Assembly: GCA_022841475.1 (NCBI GenBank)
Contig: JALHRJ010000012.1
Coordinates: 1-64,000, forward strand
Direction of reading: 5' to 3'
Origin: Cyclobacteriaceae bacterium
GTDB taxonomy: Bacteria > Bacteroidota > Bacteroidia > Cytophagales > Cyclobacteriaceae
DNA: 64,000 nucleotides
Position 1 is the stretch's first letter, and every line of letters begins with the position of its first letter. This document shows positions 22,831-48,107 of this stretch, one piece after another. The position numbers were made by a program, and so were the translations under genes. The notes beneath the pieces are model-generated. The model saw only the letters and a program-made list of their open reading frames with translations, did not search any database and was not told the origin of the DNA.

Positions 22831-22917
22831 AATAGTATTGAGATGAGAATATAGAGATCTAAGAGTCAGATGTGAAATATTGGATTCTCAATACTCACGT
22901 CTCAAATCTCTCCACTA
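22831..22917. repeat. Gene-less degenerate inverted repeat (purine-rich / pyrimidine-rich arms)
   Basis: The gap between the ABM and SAM-hydrolase genes is filled by a purine-rich arm (about 22838-22875, units like GAGATGAGAATATAGAGAT) followed by a pyrimidine-rich arm (about 22882-22912, units like CTCAATACTCACGTCTC). The reverse complement of the second arm resembles the first, for example AGAGATCTAAGA against AGAGATTTGAGA. The design resembles the arms flanking the four-helix-bundle genes at 45.3 and 46.7 kb, but with no gene between the arms. It may be an empty relative or remnant. Confidence 0.45.
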
Positions 22918-27744: not shown

Positions 27745-29817
27745 ATGATTAGTTGGGTGCCTTTTGCTATGGTACGTATCACCTTATTCCTTACGGGAGG
27801 AATACTGCTAGCTATCTATAAGCCCGGTCTGATTTCCGAACAAATTACTTTTTACATTGTATTTGCTCTGGTCTGTATTTACTTGATTTCTGCTTTCACC
27901 CTACGTTTATGGCGGTGGGCAAAAATTTTCAATGGCTTCATTGGATTATCGGCTATTTTCTTTATTGGGTATCTTCATTTATTAATCAATACCAGCAGTC
28001 GGCAAGGTGATCATCTTCTTAATGAAAGGAATGAAGTGGTTGCTTATGAAGCAATTGTGCGAAGTGCTCCTGAGTCCAAGGCAAAGTCTTGGAAACTTCA
28101 GGTAGAAGTGCTTCGGGTAAAAACAGGCGACTGGAGAGAAAGCAGTGGCCATGTGATGCTCTATGTTTCAAAAAAGACGATGGAGCAAATTCCATGGGTG
28201 TATGGAGACAGACTTTTGATAAAGGGAACTCCGAATCAGTTACAGCCACCCGCTAACCCAAATGAGTTCGACTTCAAGCGGTTTCTGAGTTTCCGCAATA
28301 TCTATCACCAGCAGTTTGTAATGAGTGATCAGATTCGATTTATCGAACATGCTGAAAGAAAAGGCTTCATTTATTATTCGCATCAGGTGCGAGCCGGGGC
28401 CACTGATGTAATAAGAAAAAACATACCGGGTCAGCAAGAGCAAGCGATTGCCATGGCATTGGTCTTAGGTGTTACCGAGGGCATTGATACCGATTTGCAA
28501 AGTGCGTATGCGGCAAGTGGTGCTATGCATGTGCTGGCAGTATCAGGTCTGCATGTAGGAATCATTTATGGAATTATTTTGGTGTTGCTTCGTCCGTTGA
28601 ATAGGTATGCATGGAGCCGCTGGGTAGTTGCCGGTATCAGCATACTTTTACTTTGGTCGTTTGCTTTTGTAACGGGTTTATCACCTTCCGTTTTACGCGC
28701 AGTCACCATGTTTTCTTTCATCGCGCTGGCAAGACCGTTAGGATGGCACTCTAATATTTACAATACATTGGCTGCATCAGCATTTGTGCTACTTATTTAT
28801 AACCCTTATTTAATTATGTCAGTAGGATTTCAGTTGTCTTATCTGGCAGTAATAGGCATAGTCTATTTACAACGACCTATTTACAATTTGTGGGAAATTG
28901 ACAATCGTGTTGGCGATTGGGTGTGGCAGATTACGTGCGTTTCTATTGCCGCACAAATTGCAACGTTTGCTCTTGGCATGTTATACTTTCATCAGTTTCC
29001 GGTTTACTTTTTAGTCTCTAATCTATTTGTTATTCCACTATCAACATTGGTTTTGATAAGTGGCATTATTCTTTTAGTGGTTAGTGGATGGTCTGCCCTG
29101 GCCGGTATAGTAGGTGCAGGACTTCAGCAATTAATTAAATTGCTTAACTGGCTTGTTTTCAAAACTGAAGAGATGCCATTCAGTCTGATCAGTGATATTT
29201 ACCTTTCAACTTTTCAATGTTGGTTGCTGATTGGCGGATTATGTGCATTGACTTTTATGATTCAGTATCGCTCCGTAAAATGGATGTACACAGCAGTTCT
29301 ATTAGCTATTGTTTTTGTTGGAACTCAATATCTACACCTTCACCAATGGGTCAATCGCGAACAATTTGTAGTGTATAGTGTGTCTGGCTATTCAGCACTG
29401 GAGTGGATTGACCATGGCGTTAGTTATTTTAAAGCAGACTCTGCGTTGCAGGCTGATCAGGAACGGATGCGATTTCATATCCGACCCAATCGGTTAAAAC
29501 GAGGTGTTTCATTGGTCAATACTAAGATTCCTTTTTCAAAAATTCTGCCTCAGGGGATTGAAGCAGTTTATTGGAAAGACAATAAAATTCTTTTAGCACA
29601 GAATAAGGAAGTGCAATTACCTCAATTAGCAGAAATCGATTACCTTGTTGTCGCTCGTAATTCAATGGCACCGGAGGCGTTGAATGGCCTTACTGTAAAG
29701 AAGATTATTTTAGATGGTAGTAATTCGCGTAGTTATGTCAACAGACTGAAAAATCTAATTGATAAAGACCGCTTACATGTAGTTTTAGAAGATGGAGCTT
29801 TTGTATTAACCCAATGA
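27745..29817 (+). CDS. comEC: ComEC/Rec2-family DNA-uptake channel protein without MBL domain
   Basis: A 690-residue polytopic protein. N-terminal helices and a DUF4131-like OB region (about 25-200) precede the Competence domain (about 225-500) with its hallmark HVLAVSGLHVGIIYGI near 250-265 and further helices. In the full-length family the C-terminus is a metallo-beta-lactamase domain with HxHxDH; here the last 150 residues contain no such motif, so the nuclease-like domain is missing or replaced. ComEC moves single-stranded DNA across the inner membrane in transformation. The next gene starts 1 base after the stop. Confidence 0.88.
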   Translation: MISWVPFAMVRITLFLTGGILLAIYKPGLISEQITFYIVFALVCIYLISAFTLRLWRWAKIFNGFIGLSAIFFIGYLHLLINTSSRQGDHLLNERNEVVAYEAIVRSAPESKAKSWKLQVEVLRVKTGDWRESSGHVMLYVSKKTMEQIPWVYGDRLLIKGTPNQLQPPANPNEFDFKRFLSFRNIYHQQFVMSDQIRFIEHAERKGFIYYSHQVRAGATDVIRKNIPGQQEQAIAMALVLGVTEGIDTDLQSAYAASGAMHVLAVSGLHVGIIYGIILVLLRPLNRYAWSRWVVAGISILLLWSFAFVTGLSPSVLRAVTMFSFIALARPLGWHSNIYNTLAASAFVLLIYNPYLIMSVGFQLSYLAVIGIVYLQRPIYNLWEIDNRVGDWVWQITCVSIAAQIATFALGMLYFHQFPVYFLVSNLFVIPLSTLVLISGIILLVVSGWSALAGIVGAGLQQLIKLLNWLVFKTEEMPFSLISDIYLSTFQCWLLIGGLCALTFMIQYRSVKWMYTAVLLAIVFVGTQYLHLHQWVNREQFVVYSVSGYSALEWIDHGVSYFKADSALQADQERMRFHIRPNRLKRGVSLVNTKIPFSKILPQGIEAVYWKDNKILLAQNKEVQLPQLAEIDYLVVARNSMAPEALNGLTVKKIILDGSNSRSYVNRLKNLIDKDRLHVVLEDGAFVLTQ

Positions 29818-34815: not shown

Positions 34816-35319
34816 TCAGCAAACGATTGAAGGTTCTACTACAGAAATTGGAAGAATTTCTTTCCATTTATCTGTTTCTGCATACTGTTTTATGGTTTCG
34901 TTTCGCTGTTCGAGCAGTTTGGTCAGGTACCTTTTTACAAAGATAAAATCTGCAGCTTCGCCAATAAGACCCATGGGTGATTCAAAATAAAAATTATCAA
35001 TCATCACGGTGTCTTCATTCATCGAATAGAAGAAATGATCGTGAATCATGGTTTTAAAAATTCCACTTACCATCTCATCCGTAAAGAAGAAAGGTCGAGT
35101 GAATTTTACGATTTGAGTTTCCAGCGTTTGCCGAAATCCCAGGTGAGTGGCTTGCCACAAAACTTTTTGATTGGGACCAATAAGTCCACTCGTAACTCCC
35201 CCCACCGCTTCTTCTTGCGTGTGCTGCACCGAGATTTTGTGTAAGTCGATGCTGCGTGCCAAATCAAAGCACACCTCAATGGGAGCCAGAATAAGCGTGG
35301 TGAGTTCGATTTTGTTCAT
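34816..35319 (-). CDS. SRPBCC-fold protein
   Basis: A 167-residue cytoplasmic protein of the START/Bet v 1-like SRPBCC superfamily. It begins MNKIELTTLILAPIEVCFDLARS, the usual first strand and helix, followed by WQATHLGFRQTLETQI and a long C-terminal helix (FVKRYLTKLLEQRNETIKQY). The family binds hydrophobic ligands; some members are labelled cell-division inhibitors because of fused relatives, but that is not supported here. It follows pfkA by 11 bases, so may be co-transcribed. Ligand unknown. Confidence 0.8.
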   Translation of the reverse strand: MNKIELTTLILAPIEVCFDLARSIDLHKISVQHTQEEAVGGVTSGLIGPNQKVLWQATHLGFRQTLETQIVKFTRPFFFTDEMVSGIFKTMIHDHFFYSMNEDTVMIDNFYFESPMGLIGEAADFIFVKRYLTKLLEQRNETIKQYAETDKWKEILPISVVEPSIVC

Positions 35320-44244: not shown

Positions 44245-45288
44245 ATGCATCGGATTGTCGTTTTTGTTTGTGCATGTATGCTGTTGGTTGTGGGGTCGGT
44301 AACTGCACAAGACCCGCAGTACTCACAATTTTATGCAGCCCCGCTTTATTTAAATCCGGCCTTTGCAGGTTCTACCAATCAAAGCCGGGTGGGTATCAAC
44401 TACCGCAATCAATGGCCGGCTATTGATGCAAACTTTAACACGATCTCAGCTTTCTATGACACCTACATTGAAGATAAAAATAGTGGCATCGGGGTTTTAA
44501 TGACCCGTGATCGGGAAGGGATTCTGGGATTACAATCGATCAGCCTCGCGGTTCAGTATTCTTACGACCTTAAAATCGTGGAGGGTCTTTCCTTCCGGCC
44601 CGGATTTCAAGCTGCCATTTATAATCGCTCCATCAATTTTGATAGACTTACCTTTGGCGATCAGTTCGATCCCCTTACGGGACAAGTTATTAATCCACAA
44701 TCAGCAGAAGGGTTAAATACGGGTCAATCCAAATTTTTTCCAGACATCTCTTTTGGTGGATTGTTTTACAGCAAGCGTGCCTGGTTAGGGTTTGCCGCCC
44801 ATCATTTAACGCAACCTAATCAATCATTAATAGGCGAAGAGAGCCGGCTTCCAAGAAAACTTTCTGGCCATGCCGGATTGAAATTTTATTTTAAACCGGG
44901 TGAGATGGGCGATGGATTTTATGCAAAACCACGCGAGCGAAGTGTGGCGCCTGCCATTCAATACCGTCATCAGGGTGAGTTTGACCAGATGGATGTTGGA
45001 TTTTATTTCACGTTTGAGCCGCTGATCATTGGTACATGGTATCGTGGCGTACCCTTTAAACCGGTGAATGGATTTTCCAATAATGAATCGATTGTTTTGC
45101 TGGTTGGGTTTACAAAAAAGGGGCAGAAGGATATTATGAACATTGGCTATAGTTATGATTACACCATTTCACAACTTGGGCCGGGCAGTGGTGGTGCGCA
45201 CGAATTTAGTTTAGTGTATTCCTGGTCCACGCGCAATCCGCGCAAGCCACCGAAGGATAAGTTAATGATTCCGTGCCCGGATTTTTAG
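44245..45288 (+). CDS. PorP/SprF-type T9SS outer-membrane protein
   Basis: A 347-residue outer-membrane protein of the PorP/SprF family. The signal peptide ends TAQ (residue 22), followed by the family signature DPQYSQFYAAPLYLNPAFAGS. Later conserved parts are RVGINYRNQWPAI, SFGGLFYSKRAWLGFAAHHL and the C-terminal EFSLVYSW. SprF-type proteins help deliver or attach type B CTD adhesins such as SprB. The giant type B adhesin is encoded divergently 186 bases away, a classical pairing. Chain length is normal. Confidence 0.92.
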   Translation: MHRIVVFVCACMLLVVGSVTAQDPQYSQFYAAPLYLNPAFAGSTNQSRVGINYRNQWPAIDANFNTISAFYDTYIEDKNSGIGVLMTRDREGILGLQSISLAVQYSYDLKIVEGLSFRPGFQAAIYNRSINFDRLTFGDQFDPLTGQVINPQSAEGLNTGQSKFFPDISFGGLFYSKRAWLGFAAHHLTQPNQSLIGEESRLPRKLSGHAGLKFYFKPGEMGDGFYAKPRERSVAPAIQYRHQGEFDQMDVGFYFTFEPLIIGTWYRGVPFKPVNGFSNNESIVLLVGFTKKGQKDIMNIGYSYDYTISQLGPGSGGAHEFSLVYSWSTRNPRKPPKDKLMIPCPDF

Positions 45289-45290
45289 AA

Positions 45291-45323
45291 CTGGTTGCTG
45301 GTTACTTGTTTCTTGTTACTGGC
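45291..45323. repeat. Cassette 1 left inverted-repeat arm
   Basis: A degenerate tandem of GGTTnCTnGTT-like units. TGGTTGCTGGTT at its start is repeated exactly, inverted, at 45712-45723. The stop codon of the cassette gene (TAA on minus at 45316-45318) lies inside the arm. Confidence 0.75.
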
Positions 45324-45669
45324 TTTTCTCGACTGCTTTAATAAAATTGTTCAACTTTCTGCCAAGTCGTTGTAAGCGTTCGGTAATTTCGGTGTAAACA
45401 GTTTGGTCAGTGATTGATTTTGTTTCGAATAAAGTTTCTAAGTGATCAATGGTCTCGTCATTAGAGGCTTGTGCGATAATCAAGAACCGGATATACTCAG
45501 CCACATACCTTCGTCTTCCATAGCCTTCCACAATATTAGATCGAACTGACTTTACAGATCTTCTGATTTGTTGACCTTCTTCAAACTTCGGCAGTTTCAA
45601 AGTCATTTCATGGACTAGTAGGGATACCTCTTTTGCTTCCTGCCAAACCTCAAGATTTTTGTAACTCAT
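45316..45669 (-). CDS. Four-helix-bundle protein (23S rRNA IVS/S23 family), type A
   Basis: A 117-residue all-helical protein of the family found in 23S rRNA intervening sequences, related in fold to Avd of diversity-generating retroelements. Typical are the start [19 protein letters not shown], the central [20 protein letters not shown], and the end helix [17 protein letters not shown]. The fold binds nucleic acid in some relatives; the role of stand-alone copies is unknown. It has its own flanking inverted repeats, and its stop codon lies in one of them. It is about one third identical to type B at 46761, so the two are not recent duplicates. Confidence 0.88.
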
Positions 45670-45691
45670 ATCTAATCATTTAGTCTAATCA

Positions 45692-45724
45692 AACCAGAGA
45701 CCAGCAACGAGAAACCAGCAACCA
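45692..45724. repeat. Cassette 1 right inverted-repeat arm
   Basis: Contains AACCAGCAACCA-type units that are the imperfect reverse complement of 45291-45323. It lies 23 bases upstream of the start codon of the cassette gene and abuts the M14 hydrolase stop codon. Confidence 0.75.
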
Positions 45725-45725
45725 A

Positions 45726-46700
45726 TTACTCATCCCCACCTCCATCAATTTTGCAATGGTTGTCCATGCCAATGTGCAGCAATGCATCTCCGGCATTAAC
45801 TACAGGATGATTGTTGAGTCCCACTACATAACCGGTGGAGGGTGATTTTATTTCTTCTTTGAATTCGCCAAAGGGATCGGTGATAGTTCCTATGATTTGA
45901 TTCTTTTGTACGAGGTCGCCACATCGGATGATGGATTGAAATAAGCCTGCATGATGTGCTCGTGCCCAGGATGAATTCCAGATAATTTTATTTTCTTCTT
46001 TAGGTTCCGGAGCCCAATCAATCATGTTAAGATGTTTCATCAGCCGCAGGGTTCCGTTAACACCTTCTTCAATGGCTTGCTGATCGAAGCGCAACGATTC
46101 GCCACCTTCATACACAATAATATTCTTTCCGTGCTTGGCAGCAGTTTGCCGGATTGAATGTGGCCGGAAAGGAGCGTCTATGGTAAAAGGTGCATGGAAG
46201 GCATTTGCCAACTCAACATTCTTTTCATCTGACATTACACAGCGGATTTGCGGATAGTTTGTGCGCATGGCCCCACCGGTGTGAAAGTCTATGCCATAAT
46301 CAATAAATGGTATAACATCGTGAGTCAGATGATAAGCAACGCGTGACGCCAGCGAACCATTTTTACTTCCGGGAAAAGAACGATTGACATCTTTGCCATC
46401 GGGTACTTCGCGCGAATAATTCAAAAAGCCATAGATATTAATAATGGGCATACAGATAACGGTGCCCCGCTTCACACGATTATGACCAACATCCAGAATT
46501 CTCCGCACGATCTCCATGCCATTGATTTCATCACCGTGCATACCTGCTGTAAGTGCCAACACAGGGCCATCTTCCAATCCGCGATAGGCATAAATCGGAG
46601 TATCAATTTGCGTGCGCGAGGGGAGGCGAGCGATATTGATAACGATCTCTTTAAATTCTCCGGGGCGGAGATGATGCTCACCAATTTTTACTTCTTTCAC
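45726..46700 (-). CDS. Succinylglutamate desuccinylase/aspartoacylase-like M14 hydrolase
   Basis: A 324-residue zinc hydrolase. The metal motif is TAGMHGDEINGMEIV (HxxE), and the third ligand is in IDFHTGGAMRTNYP. A C-terminal beta-barrel (about 225-324) with SPSTGYVVGLNNHPVVNAGD resembles the capping domain of the family. It is encoded after rimB-like and rimK genes on the same strand, so it probably acts on glutamate-tailed products or a related amide. The start is GTG at 46700, with no ATG between it and the stop at 46725; a repeat cassette begins about 11 bases upstream and may have replaced the original start region. Confidence 0.85.
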   Translation of the reverse strand: MKEVKIGEHHLRPGEFKEIVINIARLPSRTQIDTPIYAYRGLEDGPVLALTAGMHGDEINGMEIVRRILDVGHNRVKRGTVICMPIINIYGFLNYSREVPDGKDVNRSFPGSKNGSLASRVAYHLTHDVIPFIDYGIDFHTGGAMRTNYPQIRCVMSDEKNVELANAFHAPFTIDAPFRPHSIRQTAAKHGKNIIVYEGGESLRFDQQAIEEGVNGTLRLMKHLNMIDWAPEPKEENKIIWNSSWARAHHAGLFQSIIRCGDLVQKNQIIGTITDPFGEFKEEIKSPSTGYVVGLNNHPVVNAGDALLHIGMDNHCKIDGGGDE

Positions 46701-46711
46701 TTCGTAGGCAT

Positions 46712-46774
46712 TAGGGGTTGGGAATTAGGCATTGGGGAGTTGGGTATTAGGTATTGGGAATTAGGAATCGGGGT
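46712..46774. repeat. Cassette 2 left arm, degenerate ATTAGG/ATTGGG array
   Basis: About 60 bases of tandem, slightly varying GGCATTAGG, GGGTTGGGAATTAGG and GGTATTGGG units. It includes one perfect 19-mer copy of the inverted right arm (46747-46765). The stop codon of the type B gene (TAA on minus at 46761-46763) is inside. Confidence 0.82.
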
Positions 46775-47132
46775 TATTCGGACCGAGAGTATTAATATAG
46801 GCATTAAGTCTTTTGCCCAGAAGTTCAAGTTCAGTCATGAGGTCTTGATACTGTTGCTGACTAATCAAATCTCGTTGAAATGCTTTCGTTAACCACGTTT
46901 TGGTTTCGAAAAGAGAACCCCTTGCGTAGTAAGAGAAATTCTTGGTTTCCTTGAAGTGATATCGTCCTAATCCTTCTGATAGGTTTGCACCGATGGAATC
47001 AACTGACCTGACAAGCTGCTTACCAATTGTGTCTCTTTCAAAATATTTCCATGTATTCACTAAACCCCAAATCTGATCGGCCAATACCATTGCCTGCTGG
47101 TAGATACTAAAGTCCTCAAGTGTGGTTATCAT
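46761..47132 (-). CDS. Four-helix-bundle protein (23S rRNA IVS/S23 family), type B
   Basis: A 123-residue helical protein of the same family as the gene at 45316, with LEDFSIYQQAMVLADQIW near the start, the core QLVRSVDSIGANLSEGLGRY and the last helix ELELLGKRLNAYINTL. The final residues (PNNPDS) are encoded by the repeat arm that supplies the stop codon. Only the core pattern is shared with the type A protein, so each appears paired with its own repeat family. Stand-alone members have no established role; nucleic-acid binding is plausible. Confidence 0.88.
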   Translation of the reverse strand: MITTLEDFSIYQQAMVLADQIWGLVNTWKYFERDTIGKQLVRSVDSIGANLSEGLGRYHFKETKNFSYYARGSLFETKTWLTKAFQRDLISQQQYQDLMTELELLGKRLNAYINTLGPNNPDS

Positions 47133-47164
47133 GGTTGAAAAATTTGTATTGTAAATGAGTCTCC

Positions 47165-47193
47165 ATTCCTAATACCTAATTCCCAATACCTAA
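47165..47193. repeat. Cassette 2 right inverted-repeat arm
   Basis: CCTAATTCCCAATACCTAA (47175-47193) is the exact inverse of 46747-46765; 47165-47174 extends it with a further degenerate unit. It starts 32 bases upstream of the cassette gene and touches the rimK stop codon at 47196-47198. Confidence 0.85.
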
Positions 47194-47195
47194 AA

Positions 47196-48107
47196 TCATG
47201 CATTAATTTTATCCTTCTGTATTTTCTTGGTCCCGGCATTCTTTTCAATGTATTGAAAAATTTTACCGGCAATATCTACTTTGGTTGCACCTTCAATTCC
47301 TTCCAGACCGGGAGAAGAGTTTACTTCTATAATAAGTGGTCCACGTTTAGAGTTGAGCATATCCACACCGGCCACACCAAGCCCCATTTTTTTGGCGGCT
47401 TCAATGGCTGCATGTTTTTCGTGACGATCGAGTTTGACCACCGTTGCAATACCACCTCGGTGGAGGTTTGATCTGAATTCTCCTTCACGGGTTGCTTGTC
47501 TCCGCATGGAGCCCACCACCTCACCATTAACAACAAACGCCCGGATGTCGGAACCTTTGGCTTCTTTGATAAACTCTTGCACAATGATTCTTGTCTTTAC
47601 ACCGTGAAAAGCTTCGATTACCGATTGTGCAGCTTTTTTGTTTTCAGCAAGCACAACGCCCAGTCCCTGGGTTCCTTCCAACAACTTAATAACAACCGGG
47701 GCGCCACCTACCGCCTCGATGATTCCTTCGGTATCGCGCGAGTAATCCATGAAAATGGTTTTGGGTAAACCGAGTCCGGCACGTGAAAGTATTTGAAGGC
47801 TACGCAACTTATCACGTGAGCGAATGAGTGCCTGTGATTCAACTGCTGAAAATACTTTCATCATCTCAAACTGACGAACAACCGCTGCGCCATAAAAAGT
47901 TACGGAAGCACCAATGCGCGGAATGATAGCATCGAAGTAATCCAGCCTGCGCCCGTTATACCACACCATGGGATTTTTCTTTTCAATCAGCAACACGCAC
48001 TTCATGTGGTCGATGATTTCCACACGGTGGCCTCGCTTTTCGCCCGCTTCTTTCAGGCGCTTGGTGGAGTATAATTTTGGATCTCTTGAAAGTATGGCGA
48101 TGTTCAT
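47196..48107 (-). CDS. rimK: RimK-type ATP-grasp glutamate ligase
   Basis: A 303-residue ATP-grasp enzyme that adds glutamate residues to the C-terminus of ribosomal protein S6 in the best-studied member. The N-terminus [18 protein letters not shown], the central [38 protein letters not shown] and the metal-binding end [21 protein letters not shown] are all typical. It overlaps the RimB-like protease gene by 4 bases (ATGA), so the two are translationally coupled. The downstream M14 hydrolase gene probably belonged to the same operon before a repeat cassette entered between them. Substrate in this organism is inferred. Confidence 0.93.

Follow-up and report, generated by a model that had tools for sequence, protein, structure and literature searches.

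What kind of genetic element is a small gene that is enclosed by two complementary repeat arrays and wedged between ordinary protein genes? The window, that is, the whole stretch of 64,000 nucleotides analysed here, carries two such cassettes (A and B). Each encodes a protein of the S23/four-helix-bundle family, whose genes our survey found in many bacterial phyla and whose function is described as unknown (PMC4990558). We argue that S23 and its heptamer arrays probably form one gene-repeat system, i.e. a RAYT/REP-like partnership that operates without a transposase and is related to the intervening sequences of rRNA genes.

Architecture of the two cassettes

Cassette B fills the gap between rimK and a succinylglutamate desuccinylase/aspartoacylase-type gene (hereafter aspartoacylase; Table 1). 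A preliminary description of this DNA had reported a perfect 19-bp inverted repeat within ATTAGG/ATTGGG flanks, and the letters agree: the left arm reads TTAGGTATTGGGAATTAGG and the right arm is its exact reverse complement at 19 of 19 positions. The true repeat unit is 7 nt (ATTAGGN/ATTGGGN), and the arms are degenerate arrays of this unit that form multiple overlapping inverted pairs, e.g. 22 nt at 95% and 29 nt at 83%. Two further details of that description also held, namely that the stop codon of the minus-strand S23 gene (46761-46763) falls within the repeat and that the outer ends of the repeat touch the neighbouring genes, the distances being about 2 nt to the rimK stop codon (47196) and about 5 nt to the aspartoacylase GTG (46700).

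The genes at 45316 and 46761 had been assigned to one family, which the profile searches confirm (Table 1). The cassette B protein reaches 96.5 bits against PF05635 (curated cut-off 33.8) and 99.2 bits against TIGR02436, 'four helix bundle protein' (cut-off 24). PF05635 was the sole family above threshold in the cassettes, which yielded no tyrosine (IS200-like) transposase; the cassette A protein gave an additional sub-threshold match to Nab2. No meaningful match came from Rfam, none from PADLOC, and none from a phage search carried out with the cassette A protein only. Cassette B does not lie in a 23S rRNA gene, its neighbours being rimK and the aspartoacylase gene, and no 23S rRNA gene was found in the window's own genome assembly.

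The same layout with unlike arms, likewise part of the preliminary description, was recovered ab initio for both cassettes at inverted-repeat scores of 39 and 34, the null being mismatched pairs of S23 flanks (median 17, 99th percentile 31). The arms of cassette A form an inverted pair of 46 nt at 74%. A paralogue of cassette A elsewhere in the same genome (L005) shares 85% identity at a dN/dS of 0.066; the similarity is confined to the element and the insertion sites differ. In total, the window's genome (G000) has eight PF05635 places, seven of them above the cut-off, and all seven show inverted arrays of several types when judged by eye.

Table 1. Positions of cassettes A and B, their repeats and neighbouring genes in the window.
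Feature	Position	Strand	Evidence
S23/four-helix-bundle protein gene, cassette B, 123 aa	46761..47132	-	PF05635 1.4e-27; TIGR02436 1.4e-28
Cassette B 5' heptamer array, sense-strand units TTAGGTA/TTGGGAA	47158..47198	-	ab initio lag-7 array, inverted-repeat score 39
Cassette B 3' heptamer array, about 9-10 units, includes S23 stop codon	46705..46775	-	ab initio lag-7 array and repeat search
Left arm of perfect 19-bp inverted repeat, cassette B	46747..46765	+	sequence read-out
Right arm of perfect 19-bp inverted repeat, cassette B	47175..47193	+	sequence read-out
rimK (ATP-grasp), upstream neighbour of cassette B	47196..48107	-	PF08443 1.8e-64; junction compared in relatives
Succinylglutamate desuccinylase/aspartoacylase-type gene, between cassettes A and B	45726..46700	-	PF24827 1.1e-32
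S23 gene, cassette A, 117 aa, lineage different from cassette B	45316..45669	-	PF05635 7.7e-24
Cassette A 5' array, units GTTGCTG/GTTTCTC	45690..45733	-	ab initio lag-7 array
Cassette A 3' array	45287..45328	-	ab initio lag-7 array

Seven-nucleotide arrays around S23 genes

Two samples of S23 loci were analysed. The first (105 loci) came from the window's own genome and its relatives, 33 of 39 genomes having a PF05635 match, and the second (85 loci) from plasmid records and genome contigs whose titles name many phyla. Frames were used only where both flanks reached 150 nt, the L003 and L006 rows were swapped for the window versions, and L126, L130, L136, L154, and L173 gave no usable locus. 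When the 5' flank was compared with the reverse complement of the 3' flank, the median score was 32 in the first sample (17 for mismatched pairs) and 34 in the second (16 for mismatched pairs), with 54 of 105 and 43 of 85 loci above the 99th percentile of the mismatched pairs. Autocorrelation of the 120-nt flanks of the 105 loci shows peaks at lags 7 (0.375 and 0.348) and 14, and the 85 loci gave lag-7 values of 0.391 and 0.374 versus 0.26-0.27. Stretches 280-400 nt from the S23 genes are flat in both samples, without a lag-7 peak, and the ordinary spacers of six genomes lack it as well (0.26-0.30).

At a score of at least 28, inverted arms flank 127 of the 190 S23 loci, across many phyla, with a median arm length of 30 nt; at this score they went undetected in the other 63. 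The preliminary description had named the lack of arms around most relatives as the outcome that would speak against it, and the count came out the other way. Controls were 443 genes of 330-700 nt, taken from six genomes without removal of their S23 genes; 14 of them attained this score. We regard the anatomy of the cassettes as well supported. Some heptamer arrays do occur without a nearby gene, as would be expected if arrays arose by chance or were a general spacer property of these genomes. The mismatched-flank, distant-stretch, spacer, small-gene, lag-scan, and reversed-pattern controls exclude this explanation, to which we assign next to no probability.

A joint fit to 104 clean arms returned one degenerate heptamer, roughly A-G-[T/G]-n-A-n-[T/A], at 2.22 bits; 100 column-permuted nulls, fitted with equal restarts, did not exceed 1.85. 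On the sense strand of the 5' arm, G exceeds C in 93 of the 104 arms and falls below C in five. A strand bias based on the pattern itself was discarded: the value of 87.5% of arms on one strand had used a single-strand background, a strand-symmetric background gave 84 of 104, and because column-permuted controls that keep the composition give 0.72-0.92, the heptamer pattern adds nothing to orientation beyond composition.

Pairing of protein lineage and repeat type

The core idea of the preliminary description was one repeat family per protein lineage. We compared proteins and arms at 145 of the 190 loci (protein of at least 95 aa, arm score of at least 25), counting arms as similar at a score of at least 24. 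Similar arms were found in 10 of 12 protein pairs above 80% identity, in 42% of 76 pairs at 60-80%, in 6.5% of 431 pairs at 50-60%, and in 0-1.2% of pairs per bin below 50%. Over all 145 loci the Mantel correlation of proteins and arms is r 0.13 (p 0.001), and congruence is absent among pairs below 50% identity (r -0.02, p 0.80). Given that arms are alike mainly in proteins more than about 50-60% identical, each S23 lineage appears to have its own repeat; the proposal thus stands above this range, with no signal below 50%. The effect persists, though more weakly, for pairs of at least 60% identity at different insertion sites (similar arms in 6 of 31, against a background of 0.5% of 7592 pairs).

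Comparison of the same site across species adds a further aspect. The two arms of one cassette matched each other better than they matched the arms of the other species in 109 of 142 pairs, with six ties, and among 68 pairs with strong arms on both sides, 26 had arms that no longer match across species. At one site, both arms change together. We consider the pairing of protein and repeat well supported.

Selection and reverse transcriptases

dN/dS could be computed for 11 of 16 close S23 pairs and was at most 0.167 in eight of them; the remaining values are 0.249, 0.279, and 0.524, of which the last two involve L108. The S23 protein is under purifying selection.

Avd, a component of diversity-generating retroelements, is a distant S23 homologue (PMC10053308), and a PHROG Avd match at 0.0024 was obtained for cassette B only. 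This relationship would suit a reverse transcriptase that moves the cassettes in trans, with S23 acting like Avd. Many S23-rich genomes are without RVT_1, which disfavours this explanation and makes it very improbable in our judgement: ten genomes with five to nine PF05635 matches (G001, G005, G007, G010, G011, G013, G018, G020, G023, and G033) gave none at E 0.001. Unlike diversity-generating retroelements, the cassettes have no RVT_1 gene on their contig, since none of the RVT_1 places listed for the window's genome is on C12. The eighth PF05635 place of this genome, L008 on C143, is a weak match that shares its contig with an RVT_1 gene, and its flanks have no inverted arms (score 16); L008 is probably the Avd gene of a diversity-generating retroelement. 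Among the relatives, G024:C1 has 13 RVT_1 matches, several with identical scores; a reverse-transcriptase element has expanded there, and it may be a group II intron.

Arrays without an S23 gene

Parts of six genomes were scanned for strict lag-7 arrays using one filter for all lags. Three S23-rich genomes contained 13, 10, and 2 arrays (25 in 1.05 Mb), of which 18 are not beside an S23 gene, and three genomes with one weak or no S23 contained 0, 0, and 0 in 591 kb. In G033, the S23-rich genome with only two, lag-7 arrays are no commoner than those at lags 6, 9, or 12 (two each).

Four heptamer patterns were then counted in panels of 12 or 14 genomes. GGGANTN has 23-392 overlapping matches in nine genomes and none in the other three, which carry other S23 arms. 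Of these nine, eight form a related set (xanthomonads and allies) that includes one with mixed GGGATTG/GTGATTT arms (L116); the ninth (L118) reaches an inverted arm score of only 22 and has a GGGAGTN array 36 nt from its S23 gene. In its cognate genome, G055, AGTAGNC gave 85 matches that make up 45 separate arrays; G054 has one match and 12 others have none. For GTGAATN there are 26 matches in the cognate G047, forming 18 arrays, three of which adjoin its only S23 gene; elsewhere G056 has 10, all in its own cassette arm, and 12 others have 0-3. TAGTGGN has 13 matches in the cognate G051, forming five arrays, two of them its cassette arms, with one match in G054 and none in 12 others. Reversed patterns gave 0 in nearly every genome and at most 10 in one. 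The nine GGGANTN genomes have one or two S23 genes each, G047 has one, G055 six, G051 three, and G056 one. In this panel, dispersed heptamer types thus occur almost only in genomes whose S23 gene carries that type, and the counts make cognate dispersal strong for two types (GGGANTN and AGTAGNC), moderate for one, and slight for one.

Of 20 G055 stretches chosen from the listed matches, 15 have a single array and five a gene-less pair; one of the latter also contains the only S23 cassette among the 20. Several G055 arrays, judged by eye, lie directly past a stop codon or ahead of a start codon. The gene-less arrays of G018 prefer the arms of their own S23 genes (13 of 29 versus 3.9 expected, p 0.0005), six of these 13 sitting in one cluster. 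In the window's own genome, gene-less arrays match the own arms no better than expected (1 of 11 versus 1.3, p 0.96). The simplest reading of the dispersed arrays is that S23 acts in trans on its cognate repeats.

S23 might instead be a passenger, with hairpins and arrays spreading by replication slippage and template switching alone. Such a process would fit the variation in unit number among arrays of Xanthomonas (PMC4692102) and Coxiella (PMC4990558), as well as the RNase III excision of rRNA intervening sequences and the presumed decay of the S23 frame in Coxiella (PMC4990558). We nevertheless hold it to be improbable: array type tracks S23 type in the panel, strict arrays number 25 in the S23-rich and 0 in the S23-poor DNA, albeit with only two in G033, and purifying selection acts on S23.

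Several smaller arrays were recorded along the way. Three weak lag-7 arrays without strong inverted partners lie in the window (22883-22911, 28993-29024, and 34979-35007) and may be due to chance. On the same contig but outside the window, a gene-less heptamer palindrome is found at G000:C12:66700-66760 and a gene-less array at G000:C12:72987-73031; the latter scores 29 against the cassette B arm and matches one G012 arm equally well. Six clustered gene-less arrays of one type are located at G018:C37:149514-150318.

Cassette junctions and orientation

The preliminary description had suggested looking for empty sites, and empty junctions were indeed found in relatives at both cassette sites, with spacers that are not conserved. 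rimK and the aspartoacylase gene are adjacent in 17 of 27 loci examined. Their junction holds a cassette of the same type in G000 and G011, hairpins that lack a gene and are significant for both the inverted and the lag-7 signal in G006, G008, G009, and G018, a lag-7 signal only in G020 and G023, an inverted repeat only in G007, and neither signal in G012, G017, and G019; in G005, G013, and G022 it is empty, with a gap of 0-16 nt. G024, in which the rimK frame is broken, and G036 were left unclassed. Past the aspartoacylase stop codon lies a gene that we take to be PorP-like; where it was not found, 160 nt past aspartoacylase were read. This second junction carries S23 in G000, a gene-less hairpin of the GTTACCAG type in G018, array signals in G006 and G020, and short spacers in G005, G007, G016, G017, G019, and G022, the spacer of G022 giving neither an array nor an inverted-repeat signal. 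Another junction, 5' of a presumably thiolase-like gene, is occupied in different species of the genus by two unrelated S23 lineages (29% identity), L001, L051, L094, L069, and L080 versus L010, L012, L015, and L021, and their detectable arms differ.

At the cassette A junction, four relatives (G008, G009, G013, and G024; loci L215, L217, L218, and L219) have a different stretch past the aspartoacylase stop codon, with GTTGCTGG-like repeats, seen by eye, close to its ends. In G008 and G013 this stretch appears, again by eye, to encode a small membrane-like protein, the inverted-repeat scores being 26 and 19; a word search did not find this frame in G009 and G024. The alternative stretch may hint at cargo exchange or capture.

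The S23 gene points in the same direction as both neighbours in 97 of the 122 loci in which both could be called, out of 146 with an arm score of at least 25. S23 could, much like TRAP or CsrA, be a host regulator that binds intergenic heptamer RNA and controls mRNA stability or translation, its own arrays serving autoregulation. This sense bias would be in line with such a role, as would the short distances from the S23 frame to the neighbouring stop and start codons (medians of 59 and 46 nt) and the purifying selection on S23. In addition, Xanthomonas arrays are mostly stable between two species, with 83% in the same gene context (PMC4692102), and for Geobacter metallireducens, the authors of the genome paper guessed that its paired motifs, which include tandem heptanucleotides, are targets of global regulators yet to be identified (PMC2700814). 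A host regulator is harder to reconcile with junction occupancy that differs within one genus and with the two unrelated lineages at one junction, and we consider it rather unlikely.

Relation to known systems

The gene-repeat system that we favour extends the family of rRNA intervening sequences and would work like RAYT-REP, yet it lacks a feature that defines each of them. The intervening sequences in the 23S rRNA of Leptospira and Coxiella belong to the same S23 family and are elements of about 430 nt with complementary ends that form a stem; cassette B likewise has an S23 frame between complementary ends, and the Coxiella sequence has tandem GACAGAT heptamers upstream of its S23 frame (PMC4990558). 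However, intervening sequences lie in rRNA, whereas the cassettes described here lie between protein genes, and a lineage-specific heptamer code and gene-less arrays are not among the features that the pertinent sections of PMC4990558 ascribe to intervening sequences. RAYT-REP/REPIN systems similarly consist of a single gene with inverted repeats, with matching repeats dispersed between genes and the repeat type tracking the protein lineage (PMC3116915). G039, G047, and G055 are among the panel genomes in which S23 genes are flanked by inverted repeats of a dispersed family; in the window's own genome, the gene-less arrays gave no such picture (1 of 11 matching own arms). In contrast to RAYT, which is a tyrosine transposase with a REP palindrome, S23 is a four-helix bundle and its repeat is an array of degenerate 7-mers.

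How might such a system operate? The cassette, in which two complementary arrays of the cognate heptamer enclose the S23 gene, would sit mostly in sense orientation directly past the stop codon of one gene and ahead of the next, and would most likely be transcribed together with the host operon. A long hairpin could form in the transcript, its loop containing the S23 frame. A Xanthomonas relative of S23 forms a homopentameric ring (PMC4990558), and the solved relatives 2gsc and 2rld have five chains each. The S23 product may recognise the repeated heptamer, as RNA or single-stranded DNA, both within the cassette that encodes it and, in trans, at single arrays and at hairpins that lack the gene, and this recognition could spread or maintain the array family, as is thought for RAYT with REP/REPIN. 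The enzyme copying the arrays would probably be the host's. Several results count against this system: no movement was seen, 63 S23 loci showed no arms at the cut-off, most of the GGGANTN genomes are related, gene-less arrays of the window's genome do not prefer its own arms, lag 7 does not stand out in G033, and the Xanthomonas arrays mostly keep their positions between two species. Heptamer binding, the RNA stage, S23-driven dispersal, movement, and function are what we infer here.

A bolder proposal, which we put forward only tentatively, is that ring-forming, RNA- or single-stranded DNA-binding S23 proteins read a 7-nt code with one heptamer per subunit and co-diversify with it, and that their hairpins spread to operon junctions through a transcribed stage and host enzymes. 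S23 cassettes would then constitute a widespread, unrecognised class of selfish or domesticated elements without transposase, recombinase, or reverse transcriptase, and such a heptamer-reading class would explain many bacterial heptamer repeat families. The cassettes also offer a candidate function for the S23 proteins, and they provide a model for how protein and repeat co-evolve, with a constant unit length and a changing sequence.

No protein partner is given for the genome-wide heptamer repeats described in at least three papers. These orphan repeats include GGGAATC in Xanthomonas and GGGGA(C/T)T in Nostoc (PMC4692102) and TAACTGA in Beggiatoaceae (PMC4679880), and like S23 arms they form arrays that are mostly intergenic and partly arranged as convergent pairs. 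The term S23 does not occur in the main text of PMC4692102, PMC4679880, or PMC2700814, and we found no paper stating an S23-heptamer link in the open-access collection searched, a scope outside which most subscription papers and all preprints fall. S23 would provide the published repeats with a candidate protein partner, testable for each repeat family. The Geobacter and Beggiatoaceae heptamers look similar, and we predict that both, as well as the Nostoc GGGGA(C/T)T repeats, are linked to S23. In Xanthomonas, where 70 and 75 convergent GGGAATC pairs have been reported in two species (PMC4692102), the S23 genes L106-L108 of Xanthomonas carry arms of this same unit.
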